The translations under genes were made by a program, and so were the position numbers. This document shows positions 16,395-57,187 of a stretch of DNA of 64,000 bases, piece by piece (within the stretch, counting starts at the first letter, position 1; each line of letters opens with the position of its first letter). The notes beneath the pieces are model-generated. The model was not told where the DNA came from. It did not search any database and was given only the letters and a program-made list of their open reading frames with translations. The DNA is taken from positions 18,076,922 through 18,140,921 of the forward strand of contig NC_092678.1 in the NCBI RefSeq assembly GCF_964355755.1, given 5' to 3'. The stretch comes from Antedon mediterranea (Eukaryota > Echinodermata > Crinoidea > Comatulida > Antedonidae).

Positions 16395-17110
16395 GGCGGA
16401 ACGGTAATTGTGACGATGGTGGACCGGTAGTGGTGACGATTGACAATGGCGGACCAGTAGCGGTGAAGATTGACGGTGGCGGACCGGTAGTGGTGACGAT
16501 CGGTGATAGTGGGCCGGTAGTGGTGACGATCAACGATGGTGGACCGGTAGTGATGACGATCAACGATGGTGGACCGGCAGTGGTGACGATTGGTGATGGT
16601 GGACCGGTAGTGGTAACGATCAACGATGGTGGACTGGTAGTGATGACAATCAACGATGGTGGACCGGTAGTGGTGACGATCGGAGATGGTGGACCGGTAG
16701 TGGTGACGATCGAGGATGGTGGACCGGTAGTGGTGACGATCGAAGATGGTGGACCGGTAGTGGTGAGGATCGAGGATGGTGGACCGGTAGTGGTGACGAT
16801 CAAAGATGGTGGACCGGTAGTAGTGACAATCAACGATGGTGGACCGGTAGTGGTGACGATCGAAGATGGTGGACCGCTGGTAGTGACAATCAATGATGGT
16901 GGACCAATAGTGGTATGATGATCGACGATGATGGGCTGGTAGCTGTGATGACGATGGTGGACCGGTAGTTGTGATGACTATGGTGGACCGGTAGTTGTGA
17001 TGATCGATGATGGTTAATCAGTAGTGGTGACGATGGACGACGGTGGTGGTAACGACAACGGTGGACATGTAATGATGACGACGACAGAGCGGTTGTAACG
17101 GCGACGATGA
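16395..17110. repeat. 30-bp minisatellite, open on both strands
   Basis: About 17 regular units of GGACCGGTAGTGGTGACGAT plus a variable 10-mer (CAACGATGGT, TGGTGATGGT, CGAGGATGGT and so on) run from about 16410 to 16915, then a degenerate tail. Since 30 is a multiple of three, both strands keep long frames: + strand GGPVVVTI(N/E/G)D and - strand TTTGPPS(S/L)IV repeats, 162 and 201 codons. The - strand product would be Thr/Pro/Ser-rich and mucin-like. No splice context, signal peptide or flanking domain supports either as a gene, so I call it a minisatellite. Confidence 0.85.
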
Positions 17111-24754: not shown

Positions 24755-25824
24755 GGGTGTCACGAAAGCTCAGACCACGAAAGCTCAGACCCCCTAAGAC
24801 CTAAGATCACGAAAGCTAAGACCCAACACCTAAGATTACAAATATTTATCTTTCGCACCTGCCTTGTATTTTAACTCCTAACATTTATTCTGAATACCAC
24901 ACCTTAGAATTGGCACTTTCATGAAAAAGAATCACATAAAAAGTAACAAATACATTTTTAAATTGATGATTTTACAGACGTTTTTCTCGCACACAAAATG
25001 ACTAGCCTACAGTACAGTAGGCCTACCCCATGGGCCATGTTAAATGTTTTTGTTTCTATGGAACTTCAAAAGAGCAAAAATTAGGGCTGAAAACTCTGTG
25101 GAGTCCATCTACAGTGTGGATGGAACAATGTAAAATTAAAATTGTAATGATAATAGTATAATCATGCAAGTACGAAGAAATAAATACTGGCAAATAAATT
25201 TTAATATAAAAATCATGATAAGTTTTTTTGTTTCGTTTTCTTTCTGTTTTTATACTTGTACTATTATTGTTGCTCTTTTGGCGCTCCATAGAAACAAAAA
25301 CATTGAGCATGGGGAGCTCGAGGAGTTACATTACAGTATACAAAGAAACACATCTGTAAAATCATCAATTTAAAGGATTTATTTATTTGTTATTATGTGT
25401 TTCTCCTTCTGAAAGTACTTATAAGTCCTAATTTTAATGTGTGGTGTTCAGGATAAAGTTAGTCAACAAATTTGGAGTCAAAATACAAGAAAGGCAGGTG
25501 TGTAAGAAAAACATCCTCTGAATCAACACAATGGAGTAAATATATACCAACAACCCGTCAAGTTTGTTTGTTGTAAAGAAAAAATATACATTTACTCAAC
25601 GGGCGAAAATAATGTGAGTTTATCTATGTTTTGCGGTAGTATTAAATTATATTTATGGTAATAAATGAAACCTACTGTGTTTAAAATTATGTATGGATAA
25701 ACAAGTATTGTTTTTAAGCTGTAGTATATCTTAGTATTTGTAATCTTAGGTGTTGGGTCTTAGCTTTCGTGATCTTAGGTCTTAGGGGGTCTGAGCTTTC
25801 GTGGTCTGAGCTTTCGTGACACCC
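24755..25824. mobile_element. 1.07-kb foldback element with perfect 90-bp terminal inverted repeats
   Basis: GGGTGTCACGAAAGCTCAGA starts the left end, and its 90-base continuation is matched exactly, inverted, by 25735-25824. Homology of the arms resumes further in (CACCTGCCTTGTATTTTAAC at about 24856 against 25480-25502, GATGATTTTACAGA against 25350-25372), with an extra segment of about 230 bp in the right arm. Flanks TATAGAGAT (24746-24754) and CTTAGAGAT (25825-25833) match at 7 of 9 positions, which would suit a 9-bp duplication of the Mutator type. No transposase is present. The internal ORFs mirror each other and are not genes. Confidence 0.9.
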
Positions 25825-32524: not shown

Positions 32525-33022
32525 TAAGGGTGGCGGTAGTGGTGATATTGGTGGTGGTAGTATCGGTCGCTTTGTGGTGGTGGTAGTATCGGTCGCTTTG
32601 TGGTGGCGGTAGTATCGGTCGCTTTGTGGTGGTGGTAGTATCGGTCGCTTTGTGGTGGTAGTAGTATCGGTCGCTTTGTGGTGGTGGTAGTATTGGTCGC
32701 TTTTTGATAGTGGTAGTATTGGTCGCTTTGTGGTGGTAGTAGTATCAGTCGCTTTGTGGTGGTGGTGGTAGTATTTGTCGCTTTGTGGTGGTAGTATTGC
32801 TCGCTTTGTGGTGGTAGTATTGGTCGCTTTGTGGTGGTGGTAGTATTTGTCGCTTTGTGGTGGTGGTAGTATTGGTCGCTTTGTGGTGGTGGTAGTAATG
32901 GTCGCTTTGTGGTGGTGGTAGTATCGGTCGCTTTGTGGTAGTGGTAGTATCGGTCGCTTTGTGGTAGTGGTAGTATCGGTCGCTTTGTGGTGGTGGTAGT
33001 ATTGGTCGCTTTGTGGTGACAC
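32525..33022. repeat. 26-bp minisatellite (about 18 units)
   Basis: Units of TATCGGTCGCTTTGTGGTGG plus TGGTAG vary mainly by GTG/GTA content and small indels. A unit of 26 shifts frame each time, so the - strand 188-codon ORF cycles through all three frames of the same unit (SDRYYHHHKA, TDTTTTTKRP, ILPPPQ). It is open only because no frame of the unit holds a stop; it is not a gene. Confidence 0.9.
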
Positions 33023-35508: not shown

Positions 35509-35747
35509 AACTTGTTGTCATTCTTTGCCAAAATACGTGATATTTCATATTTTTACGAGAGAGTGACTAAAAACAGATTAATATTAACGATGGGCAAAAG
35601 CTGTTTGGACATGCACTAGTTATTATTAAAGTCCAATCCAGCAACAGCATTACCACAATTAAATTATATGATACTGTAATATTATTAGTAAAATTTGATT
35701 TAATTGTAGTCTAAATGTATTGTAGGCCAGAACAATTTACAATAGAG

Positions 35748-36475
35748 TTTCCTAAACTCTACACGTTCATACAAATTCATATATACATATAAAATACAAA
35801 CGCGTTTCCTAAACTCTACACGTTCATACAAATTCATATAAAAATAAATACAAACGCGTTTCCTAAACTCTACACGTCAATACAAATTCATATATACATA
35901 TAAAATACAAACGCGTTTCCTAAACTCTACACGTCAATACAAATTAATATAGACACATAAAATACAAACGCGTTTCCTAAACTCTACACGTCCATACAAA
36001 TTCATATAAAACTAAAATACAAACGCGTTTCCTAAACTCTACACGTCAATACAAATTCATATAAACATAAAATACAAACGCGTTTCCTAAACTCTACACG
36101 TTCATACAAATTCATATATATAAAATACAAACGCGTTTCCTAAACTCTACACGTCCATACAAATTCATATAAAAATAAAATACAAACGCGTTTCCTAAAC
36201 TCTACACGTTCATACAAATTCATAAAAACAAAAAATACAAACGCATTTCCTAAACTCTACACGTCCATACAAATTCATATAGACATATAAAATACAAACG
36301 CGTTTCCTAAACTCTACACGTTCATACAAATTCATATAAACATAAATACAAACGCGTTTCCTAAACTCTACACGTTCATACAAATTCATATAAAAATAAA
36401 ATACAAACGCGTTTCCTAAACTCTACACGTTCATACAAATTCATATAGACATAAAATACAAACGCGTTTCTTAAA
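35748..36475. repeat. satellite of about 14 units, period 53-59 bp
   Basis: Each unit has a constant half (CGTTTCCTAAACTCTACACG, then T(T/C)(C/A)ATACAAATTCATAT) and a variable AT spacer ending AATACAAACG. Length differences lie in the spacer (ATATACATATAA, AAAAATAA, AAACTAA). The last unit decays at CTTAAACTATAACAGC. No ORF of note. Confidence 0.92.
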
Positions 36476-36479
36476 CTAT

Positions 36480-45838: not shown

Positions 45839-47791
45839 AAGGCCTACTTCTGATTATTGCAACCTGGGAAAGTAACGCAAACATAAAAACACAATTAAAC
45901 GCAAACATAATCCTAGACAATTAACTAATAACAATTCACGAGCTCACTTATTTGTTTATCTCAACGGTTCACAAAGTGTTTAATCGTTATGTGGAATTAA
46001 CGATGCCTCATAATATTTTAGCCGTACTTCTGAATATTACCACTTAGAAAACGCAAACAAACGCAATAAAACACAATTAAACGCAATAACTGCATAATCT
46101 TATAAAAACAACTAATGAACTATATAACTAATGTAATTCAAATAAATAATAAATAATCAATCATATAATTTATGAGCTAACTTATTTATTCATCTATAAT
46201 AATTAGTACCGCCCTTATAATGCCAGAATAAATTAAGCATGACGAATAATAATTATAATGCACTGTGTTTTGGTTTCGGGTGACGCTACAATTGAAATGG
46301 AAACAAATGCTAGTGGCGACTTGTGACTCACTATAAAGGTGATAACAGTAAAATGGCTTTCCATAATGAGTCATAGTTAAATTTAGCTGGTAGAGTAATT
46401 TGAAATAAATCATAACTAATAATTTAATTATTATAGTTATAGATATAATCTAATATTGGTTGTACATGAATTTGTTGTATTTAATGCGAACGAGTACTTT
46501 TTAAAAGTGGTTTAGTTTGTCCAAAACTAAATACTAAAAAGAATGTCTCTTTACGAAGGTTTTTAATAATAATTATATTGAAAATGTTTGGTTTTGGGGA
46601 ATCGCCGATTCAAGAGGGTTTGTTTATGATGTAACTATCTGTTTGACGCTTTATTGCTTCATTAGTCTGTCATTTAAAAATAATCATTCTGAGAAACTAC
46701 CGAACAGCAAAAACAAACAACAATGGAAAATTGCCGAAAATTCTGTACTTATAACATTGGGAATCTACCGAAAATACAAACTGACAGCAATGAAAACTAC
46801 CGAAAATACTGACATTCAAAACATTCAAAAACTATCACAAATTCACAAACAGACAACAAAATGAAAAACTACCGAAAATACAAACTGACAGCAATGAAAA
46901 ACTGCCGAAAATATAAACTGACAGCAGTGAAAAACTACAGAAAATTCTAACAGTGCAGCAATAATGAAAACTGCAGAAAGTTCTAACACAATAAAAAATA
47001 CCGAAACTTACTACTGTACTAGGCCAACCTGAAACTAAATCAGCGTCATTTTTAATATTGAAAGTAATGTGTATTTTCCCTAAAAACAACCTATTTTGTG
47101 TGTAAATAAACTTGCAATTGTTAACATTATCTTCGGTTTCATCATTGTTATTTTATTATTCACGATTAGCAGTGAACACTATCGTCTGCGCAATTGAAGA
47201 CGACTAAACGGTGTAAACGCATTATAGAAACGCATTGACCGTTCACCGCTCTAGAGATACCGTTACTGATCTCTGTAATACAATCTCAATTACACAACAA
47301 ACATTTGAATTGCGGTCAGTTTTGGCTGGAGATAAAAAAACCAGGTTAATGAATGCTGTAATTATCTGAGCGCGTGTGTTAATTAGCGCGATAATACGCA
47401 CTTGTCCATTTGTGTTAGGATTTGGAAACTAAGTAAAGCCAAACTGAATACAATCTCTGGCTGAATGATGATGATAGAGATATAATATGTTTTACAATTC
47501 AATCTTTTTCGTGTACTGTCTTGTGTATATCCTTCGCTCTGTGTTGTTTGAAAATTATACGTGACGCGGGACGTGACGCATCCATTATCTTGTGTAAATC
47601 ATAATAATTTATTTATTTTTGTAAACATACATATTTTTAATTGAATATATTACACTAGTAAGCTTGTTCTTCTTCCAAATGTAAATACCTTGTCAAGTGA
47701 TGCACCAATATCAAAACCTAACTACTCGGACATGGATATCGTGTCTTAAAACATACTGGGCATGCGCATATGTTTCAGAGCGTGCGCAGTG
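45694..47791. repeat. 2.1-kb direct duplication, copy 1
   Basis: Runs from inside the MITE through GGCCTACTTCTGATTATTGC and the 33-bp array to TCAGAGCGTGCGCAGT. It matches 47799-49940 at an offset of 2105 bp near the start and about 2149 near the end. No gene is recognised; the 73-codon ORF near 46643 recurs in copy 2. Confidence 0.92.
46690..47010. repeat. 33-bp tandem array in duplication copy 1
   Basis: Degenerate units AAACTGACAGCAATGAAAAA plus CTGCCGAAAATAC. A 33-bp period keeps frame and gives KYKLTAMKNCR-like 11-residue repeats, but stops interrupt both strands within a few units, so a coding role is not supported. Confidence 0.8.
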
Positions 47792-47798
47792 AATTCAG

Positions 47799-49940
47799 TA
47801 ACGCAACGCAAGTGAATTGACCAATCACAAGCGATGGCTTAATCGCTTGTGATTGCTAACTGTCTATAACTTTGCTTGTCATTGGTTAAAACGCTTGCGT
47901 TGCGTTTACGTCCTTGCGTTACGTTCTAGTGGGAACCAAGCTTAAGGCCTACTTCTGATTATTGCAACCTGGTAAAGTAACGCAAACATAAAAACACAAT
48001 TAAACGCAAAAATAATCCTAGAAAATTAACTAATAACAATTCATGAGCTCACTTATTTGTTTATCTCAACGGTTCACGAAGTGTTTAATCGTTATGGAAT
48101 TAACGATGCCTCATAATATTTTAGCCCTACTTCTGAATATTACAACTTAGAAAACGCAAACAAACGCAATAAAATACAATTAAACACAATAACTGCAATC
48201 TTATAAAAAGAACTAATGAACTATATAACTCATGTAATTTAAATAAATAATAAATAATCAATCATATAATTTATGAGCTAACTTATTTATTCATCTATAA
48301 TAATTAGTACCGCCCTTATAATGCCAGAATAAATTAAGCATGACGAATAATAATTATAATGCACTGTGTTTTGGTTTCAGGTGAAGCTACAATTGAAATG
48401 GAAACAAATGCTAGTGGCGACTTGTGACTCACTACAAAGGTGATAACAGTAAAAATGGCTTTCCATAATGAGTCATAGTTAAATTTAGCTGGTAGAGTAA
48501 TTTGAAATAAATCATAACTAATAATTTAATTATTATAGTTATAGATATAATCTAATATTGGTTGTACATGAATTTGTTGTATTTAATGCGAACGAGTATT
48601 TTTAGAAGTGGTTTAGTTTGTCCAAAACTAAATATTAAAAAGAATGTCTCTTTAGGAAGGTTTTTAATAAAAATTATTTTGAAAATGTTTGGTTTTGGGG
48701 AATCGCCGATTCAAGAGGGTTTGTTTATGATGTAACTATCTGTTTGACGCTTTATTGCTTCATTAGTCTGTCATTTAAAAATAATCATTCTGAGAAACTA
48801 CCGAACAGCAAAAACAAACAACAATGGAAAATTGCCGAAAATTCTGTACTTATAACATTGGGAATCTACCGAAAATACAAACTGACAGCAATGAAAACTA
48901 CCGAAAATACTGACATTCAAAACATTCAAAAACTATCACAAATTTTAACAGACAACGAAATGAAAAACTACCGAAAATACAAACTGACAGCAATAAAAAA
49001 CTGCCGAAAATACAACTGACAGCAATGAAAAACTGCCGAAAATACAAACTGACAGCAATGAAAAACTGCCGAAAATATAAACTGACAGCAGTGAAAAACT
49101 ACAGAAAATTCTAACAGTTCAGCAATAATGAAAACTGCAGAAAGTTCTGACACAATTAAAAATACCGAAACTTACTACTAGGCCAAACTGAAACTAAATC
49201 AGCGTCATTTTTAATATTGAAAGTAATGTGTATTTTCCCTAAAAACAACCTATTTTTTGTGTAAATAAACTTGCAATTGTTAACATTATCTTCGGTTTCA
49301 TCATTGTTATTTTATTATTCACGATTAGCAGTGAACCATTATCGTCTGTGCAATTGAAGACGACTAAACGGTGTAAACGCATTATAGAAACGCATTGACC
49401 GTTCACCGCTCTAGAGATACCGTTACTGATCTCTGTAATACAATCTCAATTACACAACAAACATTTGAATTGCGGTCAGTATTGGCTGGAGATAAAAAAC
49501 CAGAGAGAAACCAGGTTAATGAATGCTGTAATTATCTGAGCGCGTGTGTTAATTAGCGCGATAATACGCACTTGTCCATTTGTGTTAGGATTTGGAAACT
49601 AAGTAAGCCAAACTGAATACGATCTCTGGCTGAATGATGATGATAGAGATATAATATGTTTTACAATTTTCGTGTACTGTCTTGTGTATACCCTTCGCTC
49701 TGTGTTGTTTGAAAATTATACGTGACGCATCCATTATCTTGTGTAAATCATAATAATTTATTTATTTTTGTAAACATACATATTTTTAATTGAATATATT
49801 ACACTAGTAAGCTTGTTCTTCTTCCAAATGTAAATACCTTGTCAAGTGATGCACCAATATCGAAACCTAACTACTCGGACATGGATATCGTGTCTTAAAA
49901 CATACTGCGCATGCGCTTATGTTTCAGAGCGTGCGCAGTG
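47799..49940. repeat. 2.1-kb direct duplication, copy 2
   Basis: Begins TAACGCAACGCAAGTGAATT after the 7-base filler GAATTCA at the junction, so it carries only the right 145 bp of the MITE (to 47943). Differences from copy 1 are scattered substitutions, an extra 33-bp unit, a CAGAGAGAAAC insertion near 49500 and loss of TCAATCTTT near 49660. Confidence 0.92.
48800..49165. repeat. 33-bp tandem array in duplication copy 2
   Basis: Same array as 46690-47010 with about one more CTGACAGCAATGAAAAACTG unit, so the array changed length after the duplication. Confidence 0.8.
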
Positions 49941-55183: not shown

Positions 55184-55281
55184 ATGGCTGCGCCCATGGG
55201 TCTTGTCAGGCCTCGTCTGTCAGGCATTCTAAGCCTGATATTTTCCAATGTAAAATGTATTGGTTCATGTTACAACATAAG
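55184..55281 (+). CDS. NDUFAF3: NDUFAF3 coding exon 1 (targeting peptide)
   Basis: Encodes MAAPMGLVRPRLSG through GSCYN-I and ends in a split codon (AG|C, Ser) at donor AAG|GTAACA. Arg-rich and without acidic residues. The upstream sequence has CCCTCTATAATTG and GCGCGACC but no clear TATA box at a fixed distance. Confidence 0.85.
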
Positions 55282-57187
55282 GTAACAAGATTAAGATTTA
55301 ATAGTTCTAGGCGCTATTGTAATAGCGCCTAGGCCTAGTTTAACATATTTTATTTTAGGTCTAGGCTAGCCTACTATTCTAACTAAAAAAAAGCCAGGAG
55401 GCTAGAGCCTAGGCCTAGCCTGCCTCTCTAACTAAATCTAGGCCTAGCTAGACCTAGCCTAGAGGGAGTAGGCTAGAAGAATGAATGTCACGCATGCAGT
55501 CATATTTGGCCGGCATGATCATGTAAATTGTAATGATGATGGCGAAACCTGCCGCCATGTAGGCCTAGACAGAATTGCCTATAATATAGACTAGTACTAA
55601 TACTAGTAGAGAGTCTACCCAAGCTGCCGCCTAGTAGTACAGTAGACCTACATCTGGTGGGGCCCAATAAAAAAAGGTTTTTCAGCTATATTAATATTAT
55701 ATTATATAATAAATGTTATTGAATAAATGGGTTGATGTCTATCTTTGTTTGGTCAGCTGTACATACAAATAAAACACTAATTATACTATACTTTTTAGTA
55801 TTGTTGTACATTTAAACACTATCTTTGTAAACATTTGTATTTTTGCAGCAAAACATCAAACCGAACATTCAGCAGGCTGCATCCTACTGATGATGAACTG
55901 TACGTTAAAACTACAGTTAGTCTTTTGTCGAAAGAGGTCACCGACGTCCCACAAGTGACAGCCTACAGTCAGAAGGGATTCACCATTAGTGAGGATTCAA
56001 TTACTGGGCCAGTTGCAATATTACCGAAGAGTCTCATCTCGTGGAATGTAAGGGTAACTTAATTCGATGTTCCGCAAGCTACGGGACACAAATTGTAAAA
56101 AAAAATATTAATAAAATATTTGACTGACAGGCAAGCATCTTACCATCTTGTAATTCCACTTTCATGACATCATTTAATTTACTTTACTCTCTCTTTTTTT
56201 GCTAACTTGCACTATTTTTATTTACAGATTCGAAATTGGGAGGAGATTTCAAAAGAAAGTTTAAGTTTATTTTATTTGATAGAACCTAAAATAGGTGAGA
56301 AAATATGTTTGAGGAATAATAAAATGTCATTCCTATTTTGTACTCAGTTTACCTCAGTGATTTTTTTCAAACACGTAATCAGTGGAGCTGTGTTTTGACT
56401 TTGTCAGGTACCCATTTATACACCTGGATGAAGAGAGGTAAATGTAAGTAATGTCTTAACAAAGACACAAGCAATGTGACGAGCATTGGAATCGAACCCG
56501 CGATCAATACACTGTTGGACAGTAACAATGTGTACCAGTAAAAGATCTTGGTTATAAACGATGAGACTACTGTAATTGTCTTAATTTATTAACATTGTCC
56601 TGTAATTTTAATTATATATTTTTAGAAATTTTTATACTCGGTGTTGGATCAACAAACCGAAGACTTGACCCTGAAATTCACTCCTTTATGAGTTCAAAGG
56701 GCATAGCACTGGAAGTGCAAGATACGGTAAGTGACATACATTTTGGGGAACTTCTAATTCACTCCTTTATGAGTTCAAAGGTCATAGCGCTAAAAGTTCA
56801 AGATACTGTAAGTGACATGCATTTGGAGAACTTCTAATTCACTCCTTTATGAGTTCAAAGGTCATAGTGCTAAAAGTGTTTAATCCAATCATTATGTTGA
56901 CATTAAATATTAAATTAAACTTTCAAACAGGGAAGTGGGGGGGGGGGGCTGAGATTGGACAGAATAATCTCTTCCAAAAGATACATTGGTTTCTTTAAGA
57001 GTGCACACACAGCCTATACAGTACTATAATTTTTTTTTCATTTCAGAGGCATGCATGCGCCACATTCAACTACTTGGTAAATGAAAGCCGTATCGTGGCA
57101 GCTGGCCTGATACCACTTGACCCTGTCTTACCCCCATCATTAGCAAAACTAAAAGGAATAGGAAAGGGACAACAATACATCGAATGA
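55184..57187 (+). CDS. NDUFAF3: NDUFAF3 homologue, complete, five coding exons
   Basis: NADH dehydrogenase 1 alpha subcomplex assembly factor 3, a mitochondrial protein that works with NDUFAF4 in early complex I assembly (family knowledge). Joining 55184-55281, 55849-56047, 56228-56294, 56626-56726 and 57047-57187 gives about 201 residues (human about 184), with GT-AG introns and consistent phases. The Arg-containing, acid-free N-terminus (MAAPMGLVRPRLSG) suits a matrix targeting peptide. The Mth938/DUF498-type fold follows: GFTISEDSITGPVAILP, SLISWN, SLSLFYLIEPKIEIFILGVG, IALEVQDT, ACATFNYLVNE and AAGLIP, all in the order of animal orthologues. The start is AAAATGG, the first ATG in frame. 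It converges on STIMATE. Oddity: the exon 4 3' end is tandemly repeated in intron 4. Confidence 0.95.
55330..55650. repeat. CTAGGCCTAG-rich block in NDUFAF3 intron 1
   Basis: Dense CCTAGG, CTAGGCCTAG, GCTAGCC and GCTAGAC words overlap, many palindromic (for example GAGCCTAGGCCTAGCCTG). It is the strongest local concentration of the AGGCCT word that is over-represented across the window. Confidence 0.6.
55849..56047 (+). CDS. NDUFAF3: NDUFAF3 coding exon 2
   Basis: Acceptor TATTTTTGCAG; donor AAT|GTAAGG. Encodes KTSNRTFSRLHPTDDELYVK through LPKSLISWN, the first strands of the Mth938-type domain. An alternative donor AGG|GTAACT two codons on (56054) would add Val-Arg. I preferred 56047 because SWN followed by exon 3 aligns better with the family. 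Confidence 0.93.
56228..56294 (+). CDS. NDUFAF3: NDUFAF3 coding exon 3
   Basis: Acceptor TATTTACAG; donor ATAG|GTGAGA. Encodes IRNWEEISKESLSLFYLIEP then KI, and ends with one base of the next Glu codon. Confidence 0.93.
56400..56545 (-). mobile_element. SINE fragment in NDUFAF3 intron 3
   Basis: Read on the - strand: B-box GCGGGTTCGATTCCAATGC, then about 90 bp on, CCAGGTGTATAAATGGGTAC, a 3' end common to many invertebrate SINE/LINE pairs. The 5' A-box part is diverged. Confidence 0.6.
56626..56726 (+). CDS. NDUFAF3: NDUFAF3 coding exon 4
   Basis: Acceptor ATATTTTTAG; donor ACG|GTAAGTG. Encodes IFILGVGSTNRRLDPEIHSF then MSSKGIALEVQDT. Its last 51 bases and the donor are the first unit of an 81-bp tandem repeat that continues into the intron, providing a second in-phase donor at 56807|56808. 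Confidence 0.95.
56676..56880 (+). repeat. 81-bp tandem duplication of the exon 4 end plus its splice donor
   Basis: ATTCACTCCTTTATGAGTTC starts at 56676, 56757 and 56837 (periods 81 and 80). Copies 1 and 2 both carry a GTAAGTGACAT donor; copy 3 stops before the donor position. Copy 2 keeps HSFMSSKVIALKVQDT in frame with exon 4; the frame closes at TAA 56835-56837 because of a one-base loss. Confidence 0.95.
57047..57187 (+). CDS. NDUFAF3: NDUFAF3 coding exon 5 (C-terminus)
   Basis: Acceptor TTTCATTTCAG; ends TGA 57185-57187. Encodes RHACATFNYLVNESRIVAAG then LIPLDPVLPPSLAKLKG and ends GQQYIE. ACATFN-L-NE and AAGLIP are the most conserved family motifs here. Confidence 0.94.
   Translation, partial: RHACATFNYLVNESRIVAAGLIPLDPVLPPSLAKLKGIGKGQQYIE

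Follow-up and report, generated by a model that had tools for sequence, protein, structure and literature searches.

We find that the end of exon 4 in a gene of the NDUFAF3/DUF498 family is repeated in tandem together with its splice donor, which places a second donor (donor 2) downstream of the canonical one (donor 1). Judged from the sequence, the repeated stretch is probably a silent intronic repeat, with canonical splicing from donor 1 and with donor 2 at most leaky. All coordinates refer to the window, that is, the whole 64-kb stretch of DNA that was analysed.

A five-exon gene of the NDUFAF3/DUF498 family

The gene lies on the + strand of the window and is made up of five exons; all four introns have GT-AG borders, and a single frame runs uninterrupted to a TGA stop codon. 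Spliced from donor 1, its predicted canonical product is 201 aa long. The model comprises the following parts:

55184..55281, + strand: NDUFAF3 exon 1, coding part only, from a predicted ATG start codon
55849..56047, + strand: NDUFAF3 exon 2, with GT-AG borders, a continuous frame and Pfam PF04430
56228..56294, + strand: NDUFAF3 exon 3, from the gene model
56626..56726, + strand: NDUFAF3 exon 4, ending at donor 1 (ACG/GTAAGT; U1 duplex −10.1 kcal/mol)
57047..57187, + strand: NDUFAF3 exon 5, coding part to TGA, with the RHACATFN block at its start

The 201-aa product matches PF04430 (DUF498) with 167 of its residues and across the complete profile (positions 1–109 of 109), at 111.2 bits against a cut-off of 33 and with E=3.2e-32. 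From this match, and from its likeness to the human protein, we take the gene to be NDUFAF3, with a putative role in complex I assembly. All four matches of the NDUFAF3 protein found in the 354-Mb, 18-contig assembly fall at one locus, and for the sequence present in that assembly a second copy of the gene was set aside on that ground.

Intron 3 of NDUFAF3 contains, at 56488–56505, the stretch GGAATCGAACCCGCGATC; it looks like a tRNA T arm on the minus strand and is perhaps a remnant of a tRNA-derived SINE. ARAGORN predicts no tRNA in the window, and so none at these positions.

A tandem array across the exon 4/intron 4 border

TRF and a repeat finder agree on a tandem array at 56675–56878 with a period of 81, 2.5 copies, 91% matches and a score of 338, which is far beyond chance. 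The unit consists of the last ~51 bases of exon 4, the GTAAGTG donor and the start of intron 4. Two of the copies include the exon end, a GT donor and the intron start, and the third stops earlier:

56675..56755, + strand: copy 1 of the repeat (81 nt), running from the last part of exon 4 into the first part of intron 4
56756..56835, + strand: repeat copy 2 (80 nt), the duplicated exon end, donor 2 and part of the intron
56836..56878, + strand: repeat copy 3, partial (43 nt), stopping 9 nt short of its donor position

The initial annotation had described a duplication of the exon 4 end with its donor, in an 81-bp unit of 51 exon bases, GTAAGTG and 30 intron bases whose third copy breaks off before its donor position, and had placed the borders of donor 1, donor 2 and exon 5 at 56726/56727, 56807/56808 and 57046/57047. 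The duplication, the period of 81, the early end of copy 3 and all three borders are borne out, with three corrections: the ~30 intron bases of the unit include the donor itself, copy 2 is one nucleotide shorter than the period, and copy 3, with the array, stops at 56878.

Copy 2 differs from copy 1 by eight substitutions and a 1-nt deletion, the latter a single T missing after donor 2, which leaves the frame untouched. Over the 42 nt shared from the ATT codon on, copies 2 and 3 show two differences from each other and have four differences from copy 1 in common. They are therefore nearer each other than either is to copy 1, which suggests either two steps (copy 1 to copy 2, later copy 2 to copy 3) or homogenisation. 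Copy 1 is presumably the older form, since it lies within the exon and agrees with the family.

Searched as DNA against the assembly, the unit scored at one candidate place, this locus; this is a lower bound, since the search skips very common words. Elsewhere within the window only seven pieces of 10–14 nt match the unit; with one place in the assembly and only such short pieces nearby, a dispersed element was set aside.

Position and strength of the two donors

Donor 2 retains the intronic part of the donor motif:

56808..56813, + strand: donor 2 (ACT/GTAAGT), 81 nt downstream of donor 1; U1 duplex −6.2 kcal/mol

Paired with the U1 5' end, donor 1 has a calculated duplex energy of −10.1 kcal/mol and donor 2 one of −6.2 kcal/mol; a human donor matrix gives 10.2 and 6.1 bits, respectively. 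Donor 2 is weaker because the G at the exon end has been lost and is now a T; this G is 82% conserved among human donors (PMC8283771). The other NDUFAF3 donors have duplex energies of −6.5 (exon 1) and −4.8 kcal/mol (exon 2, AAT/GTAAGG), and the exon 2 donor, like donor 2, has a T before GT. Donor 1 is the best-pairing of the five candidate sites scored in the gene.

Donor 2 keeps GTAAGT, and its −6.2 kcal/mol lies inside the range of the four predicted donors (−4.8 to −10.1 kcal/mol). As the donors of exons 1 and 2 are comparably weak, donor 2 does not seem too weak to work, and could function alone. It has what an alternative 5' splice site would show in sequence: a GT, U1 pairing within range and an open frame. 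Furthermore, it is nearer than donor 1 to the exon 5 acceptor, and where two competing donors are both well occupied, the one nearer the acceptor can be favoured.

An open frame up to donor 2

The initial annotation had also proposed that splicing from donor 2 would insert 27 in-frame residues, and the stretch is indeed open:

56727..56807, + strand: 27 stop-free codons that use of donor 2 would add in frame

The predicted extension is VSDIHFGELLIHSFMSSKVIALKVQDT, which would lengthen the product from 201 to 228 aa. Of the 27 codons, 17 are of coding origin and ten are derived from the intron; reading on beyond donor 2 leads to a stop after nine codons. Such openness is ordinary in this DNA: random 30-nt stretches of the window are open in a fraction of 0.51, and stretches starting from GTRAG sites on both strands of the window are open in 87 of 156 cases. 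With a one-in-three chance that the period is divisible by three, the joint probability of an open frame and kept phase in the absence of selection is about 0.17. Selection for the open frame is thus not needed, roughly 0.5 times one third arising by chance.

Copy 2 as protein and its fit to the family

At the codon level, copy 2 differs from copy 1 by a change of Gly to Val, a change of Glu to Lys and four silent differences; this and the other comparisons of the two copies involve small numbers throughout. We placed the changes against five solved DUF498 relatives with E<0.01 (2fvt, 2fi9, 2k2e, 3cpk and 2gm2), of which the third and fourth are identical in the segment compared; FosA3 (E=0.91) was dropped as unrelated. 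In this order, the Glu column reads D, D, E, E and E, acidic in all five, and the Gly column reads N, R, G, G and G. With only three of the five carrying Gly, that residue is not invariant. At the junction of exons 4 and 5 all five relatives are free of gaps and insertions, and the donor 1 protein aligns to every one of them without interruption there.

With copy 2 substituted for copy 1, the PF04430 score drops by 6.3 bits, from 111.2 to 104.9. The extended protein scores 109.4 bits, in two stretches, and the piece formed by copy 2 and exon 5 alone reaches 36.7 bits over profile positions 72–109, above the cut-off of 33. Judged by these scores, copy 2 fits the family less well yet is still recognisable. 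The silent share of the codon differences (4/6) exceeds what random change predicts (P 0.02–0.05), an excess that constraint on copy 1 explains as well as constraint on copy 2 does. Divergence of copy 2 amounts to 6/51 in its exon-derived and 2/28 in its intron-derived part (Fisher p=0.71), and at these small numbers there is no sign that the exon-derived part is the better conserved.

Silent repeat or longer exon

The exon 4/intron 4 border of NDUFAF3 is spanned by a small tandem duplication, to which the partial copy 3 may later have been added with copy 2 as its source, unless the two were homogenised. We propose that splicing would continue from the upstream, better-paired donor 1 to exon 5 and yield the 201-aa protein, with copies 2 and 3 sitting in intron 4 and presumably drifting as intronic sequence. 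Donor 2 would then be a leaky donor at most, contributing a minor share of mRNA with the 27-residue in-frame insert; donor 1 would mostly win. The initial annotation had regarded the locus as a natural case of exon lengthening through donor duplication. The duplication and the in-frame reading stand, whereas for use in nature the sequence evidence leans the other way, towards the silent repeat or at most a minor isoform, because of the weaker U1 pairing and lost exon-end G at donor 2, and because of the Gly-to-Val and Glu-to-Lys changes, the missing insertion in the five relatives and the similar divergence of the exon-derived and intron-derived parts of copy 2.

The same observations bear on how far donor 2 might be used. 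It is unlikely, although the open frame and kept phase would allow it, that both donors serve and give a regular second isoform in which a 27-residue insert repeats the HSFMSSK...VQDT segment before ACATFN. Such an isoform would accord with a donor 2 comparable to two other donors of the gene, with four silent changes among six codon differences and with a copy 2 that PF04430 still recognises; it sits poorly with the weaker pairing and lost G, with a Lys at a column that is acidic in 5/5 relatives, and with the lack of any insertion there in the same five, and the open frame itself is of an ordinary kind (0.51 of random stretches; 87/156 GTRAG sites). Less probable still is the fuller account, in which a one-step, donor-spanning duplication was kept in frame and a regular NDUFAF3 isoform with a repeated core segment exists beside the canonical one. 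That donor 2 has displaced donor 1 and the extended exon 4 is present in all of the mRNA would be a very improbable outcome: donor 2 is nearer the acceptor and no stop lies ahead of it, but donor 1 pairs best of the five candidate sites and is placed where the canonical protein results. We give equally little credence to an assembly or haplotype artefact, for although a single assembly is the source of the array, eight substitutions and an indel between copies 1 and 2, and two differences in 42 nt between copies 2 and 3, are unlike doubled reads. Two other constructions were set aside: that copy 2 forms an exon of its own, since its exon-derived part is separated from that of copy 1 by a mere 29 intron-derived bases, and intron gain, since the unit joins an exon end to an intron start and holds no copy of the gene's acceptor.

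Comparable duplications at splice borders

Tandem duplication at or close to splice borders has been described as a source of new introns and splice variants (PMC4974935, PMC2891723). The potato RdRp gene carries a tandem genomic duplication crossing an intron-exon boundary (PMC4974935), and it and the NDUFAF3 array both cross an exon-intron border and copy existing splicing signals. The potato unit held a 3' splice site and led to a new spliced intron whose donor was recruited from the exon; in NDUFAF3, by contrast, it is the 5' splice site that was copied while the gene's acceptor was not, and use of the new site is putative. A donor copied in this way would at most lengthen the exon. In Drosophila, novel intron positions have been traced to partial tandem duplication of exons with a proto-splice site (Lehmann et al. 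2010, PMC2891723). The Drosophila cases share with NDUFAF3 small coding tandem duplications that add potential splice sites, in multiple-of-three sizes that permit alternative splice patterns; they differ in that an exonic AG/GY site was duplicated to give an intron, whereas NDUFAF3 copied an existing donor. For exons with alternative 5' splice sites, U1 complementarity bears on which forms are major and minor (PMC2423196). Those exons likewise pair two donors with one acceptor; the ones described there mainly have overlapping donors a few nucleotides apart with transcript support, unlike the 81 nt and purely sequence-based case of NDUFAF3.

Among the papers listed in our literature searches, none describes this locus or a tandem duplication that copies a donor alone, and nothing bearing directly on the case was found in PMC8724738, PMC11718197, PMC7730772 and PMC2531105. 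If donor 2 is used, the locus would offer a compact natural test of competition between two near-identical donors 81 nt apart that differ in G or T at position −1, and of the tolerance of a conserved mitochondrial assembly factor for an insert within its core. If it is unused, the array is a splice-border repeat that is probably harmless, since the upstream donor stays the better one.

Repeats elsewhere in the window

The window holds 14 separate tandem arrays with a period of at least 30, merged by hand from 58 repeat rows and including the NDUFAF3 array; they cover 5.0% of it, or 2.9% without the two longest. By a rough estimate that assumes no selection, 0.4 overlaps between such arrays and the eight exon-intron borders are expected by chance (0.23 without the two longest), and the coincidence of array and border is not remarkable.

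No Rfam family reaches its gathering score in the window, and a Pfam scan of ten of the 21 listed window ORFs of at least 100 aa gave no match above cut-off; one of them gave PF25383 at 13.1 bits against a cut-off of 40. A tblastn search in plasmids returned seven records, all from Azospirillum, at 28–29% identity.

Long minisatellites lie at 16412–17046, 32549–33018 and 35747–36477, with 21, 18 and 13 copies. The first is overlapped by open frames of 185–229 aa on both strands, the second by minus-strand frames of 105–192 aa; the repeat probably accounts for them.

Further, the arrays at 46765–46945 and 48866–49170 share the unit CTACCGAAAATACAAACTGACAGCAATGAAAAA, and those at 47585–47637 and 49734–49786 share the unit TTATCTTGTGTAAATCATAATAATTTAT; in each pair the spacing is ~2.1 kb, and a segment of about that length may have been duplicated. 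The arrays at 1122–1315 and 1558–1770 (periods 67 and 70) are seemingly circular permutations of nearly one unit. Two 15-nt arrays ~1 kb apart, at 24761–24823 and 25758–25819, have units that look like near reverse complements, and are possibly the ends of an inverted-repeat element.
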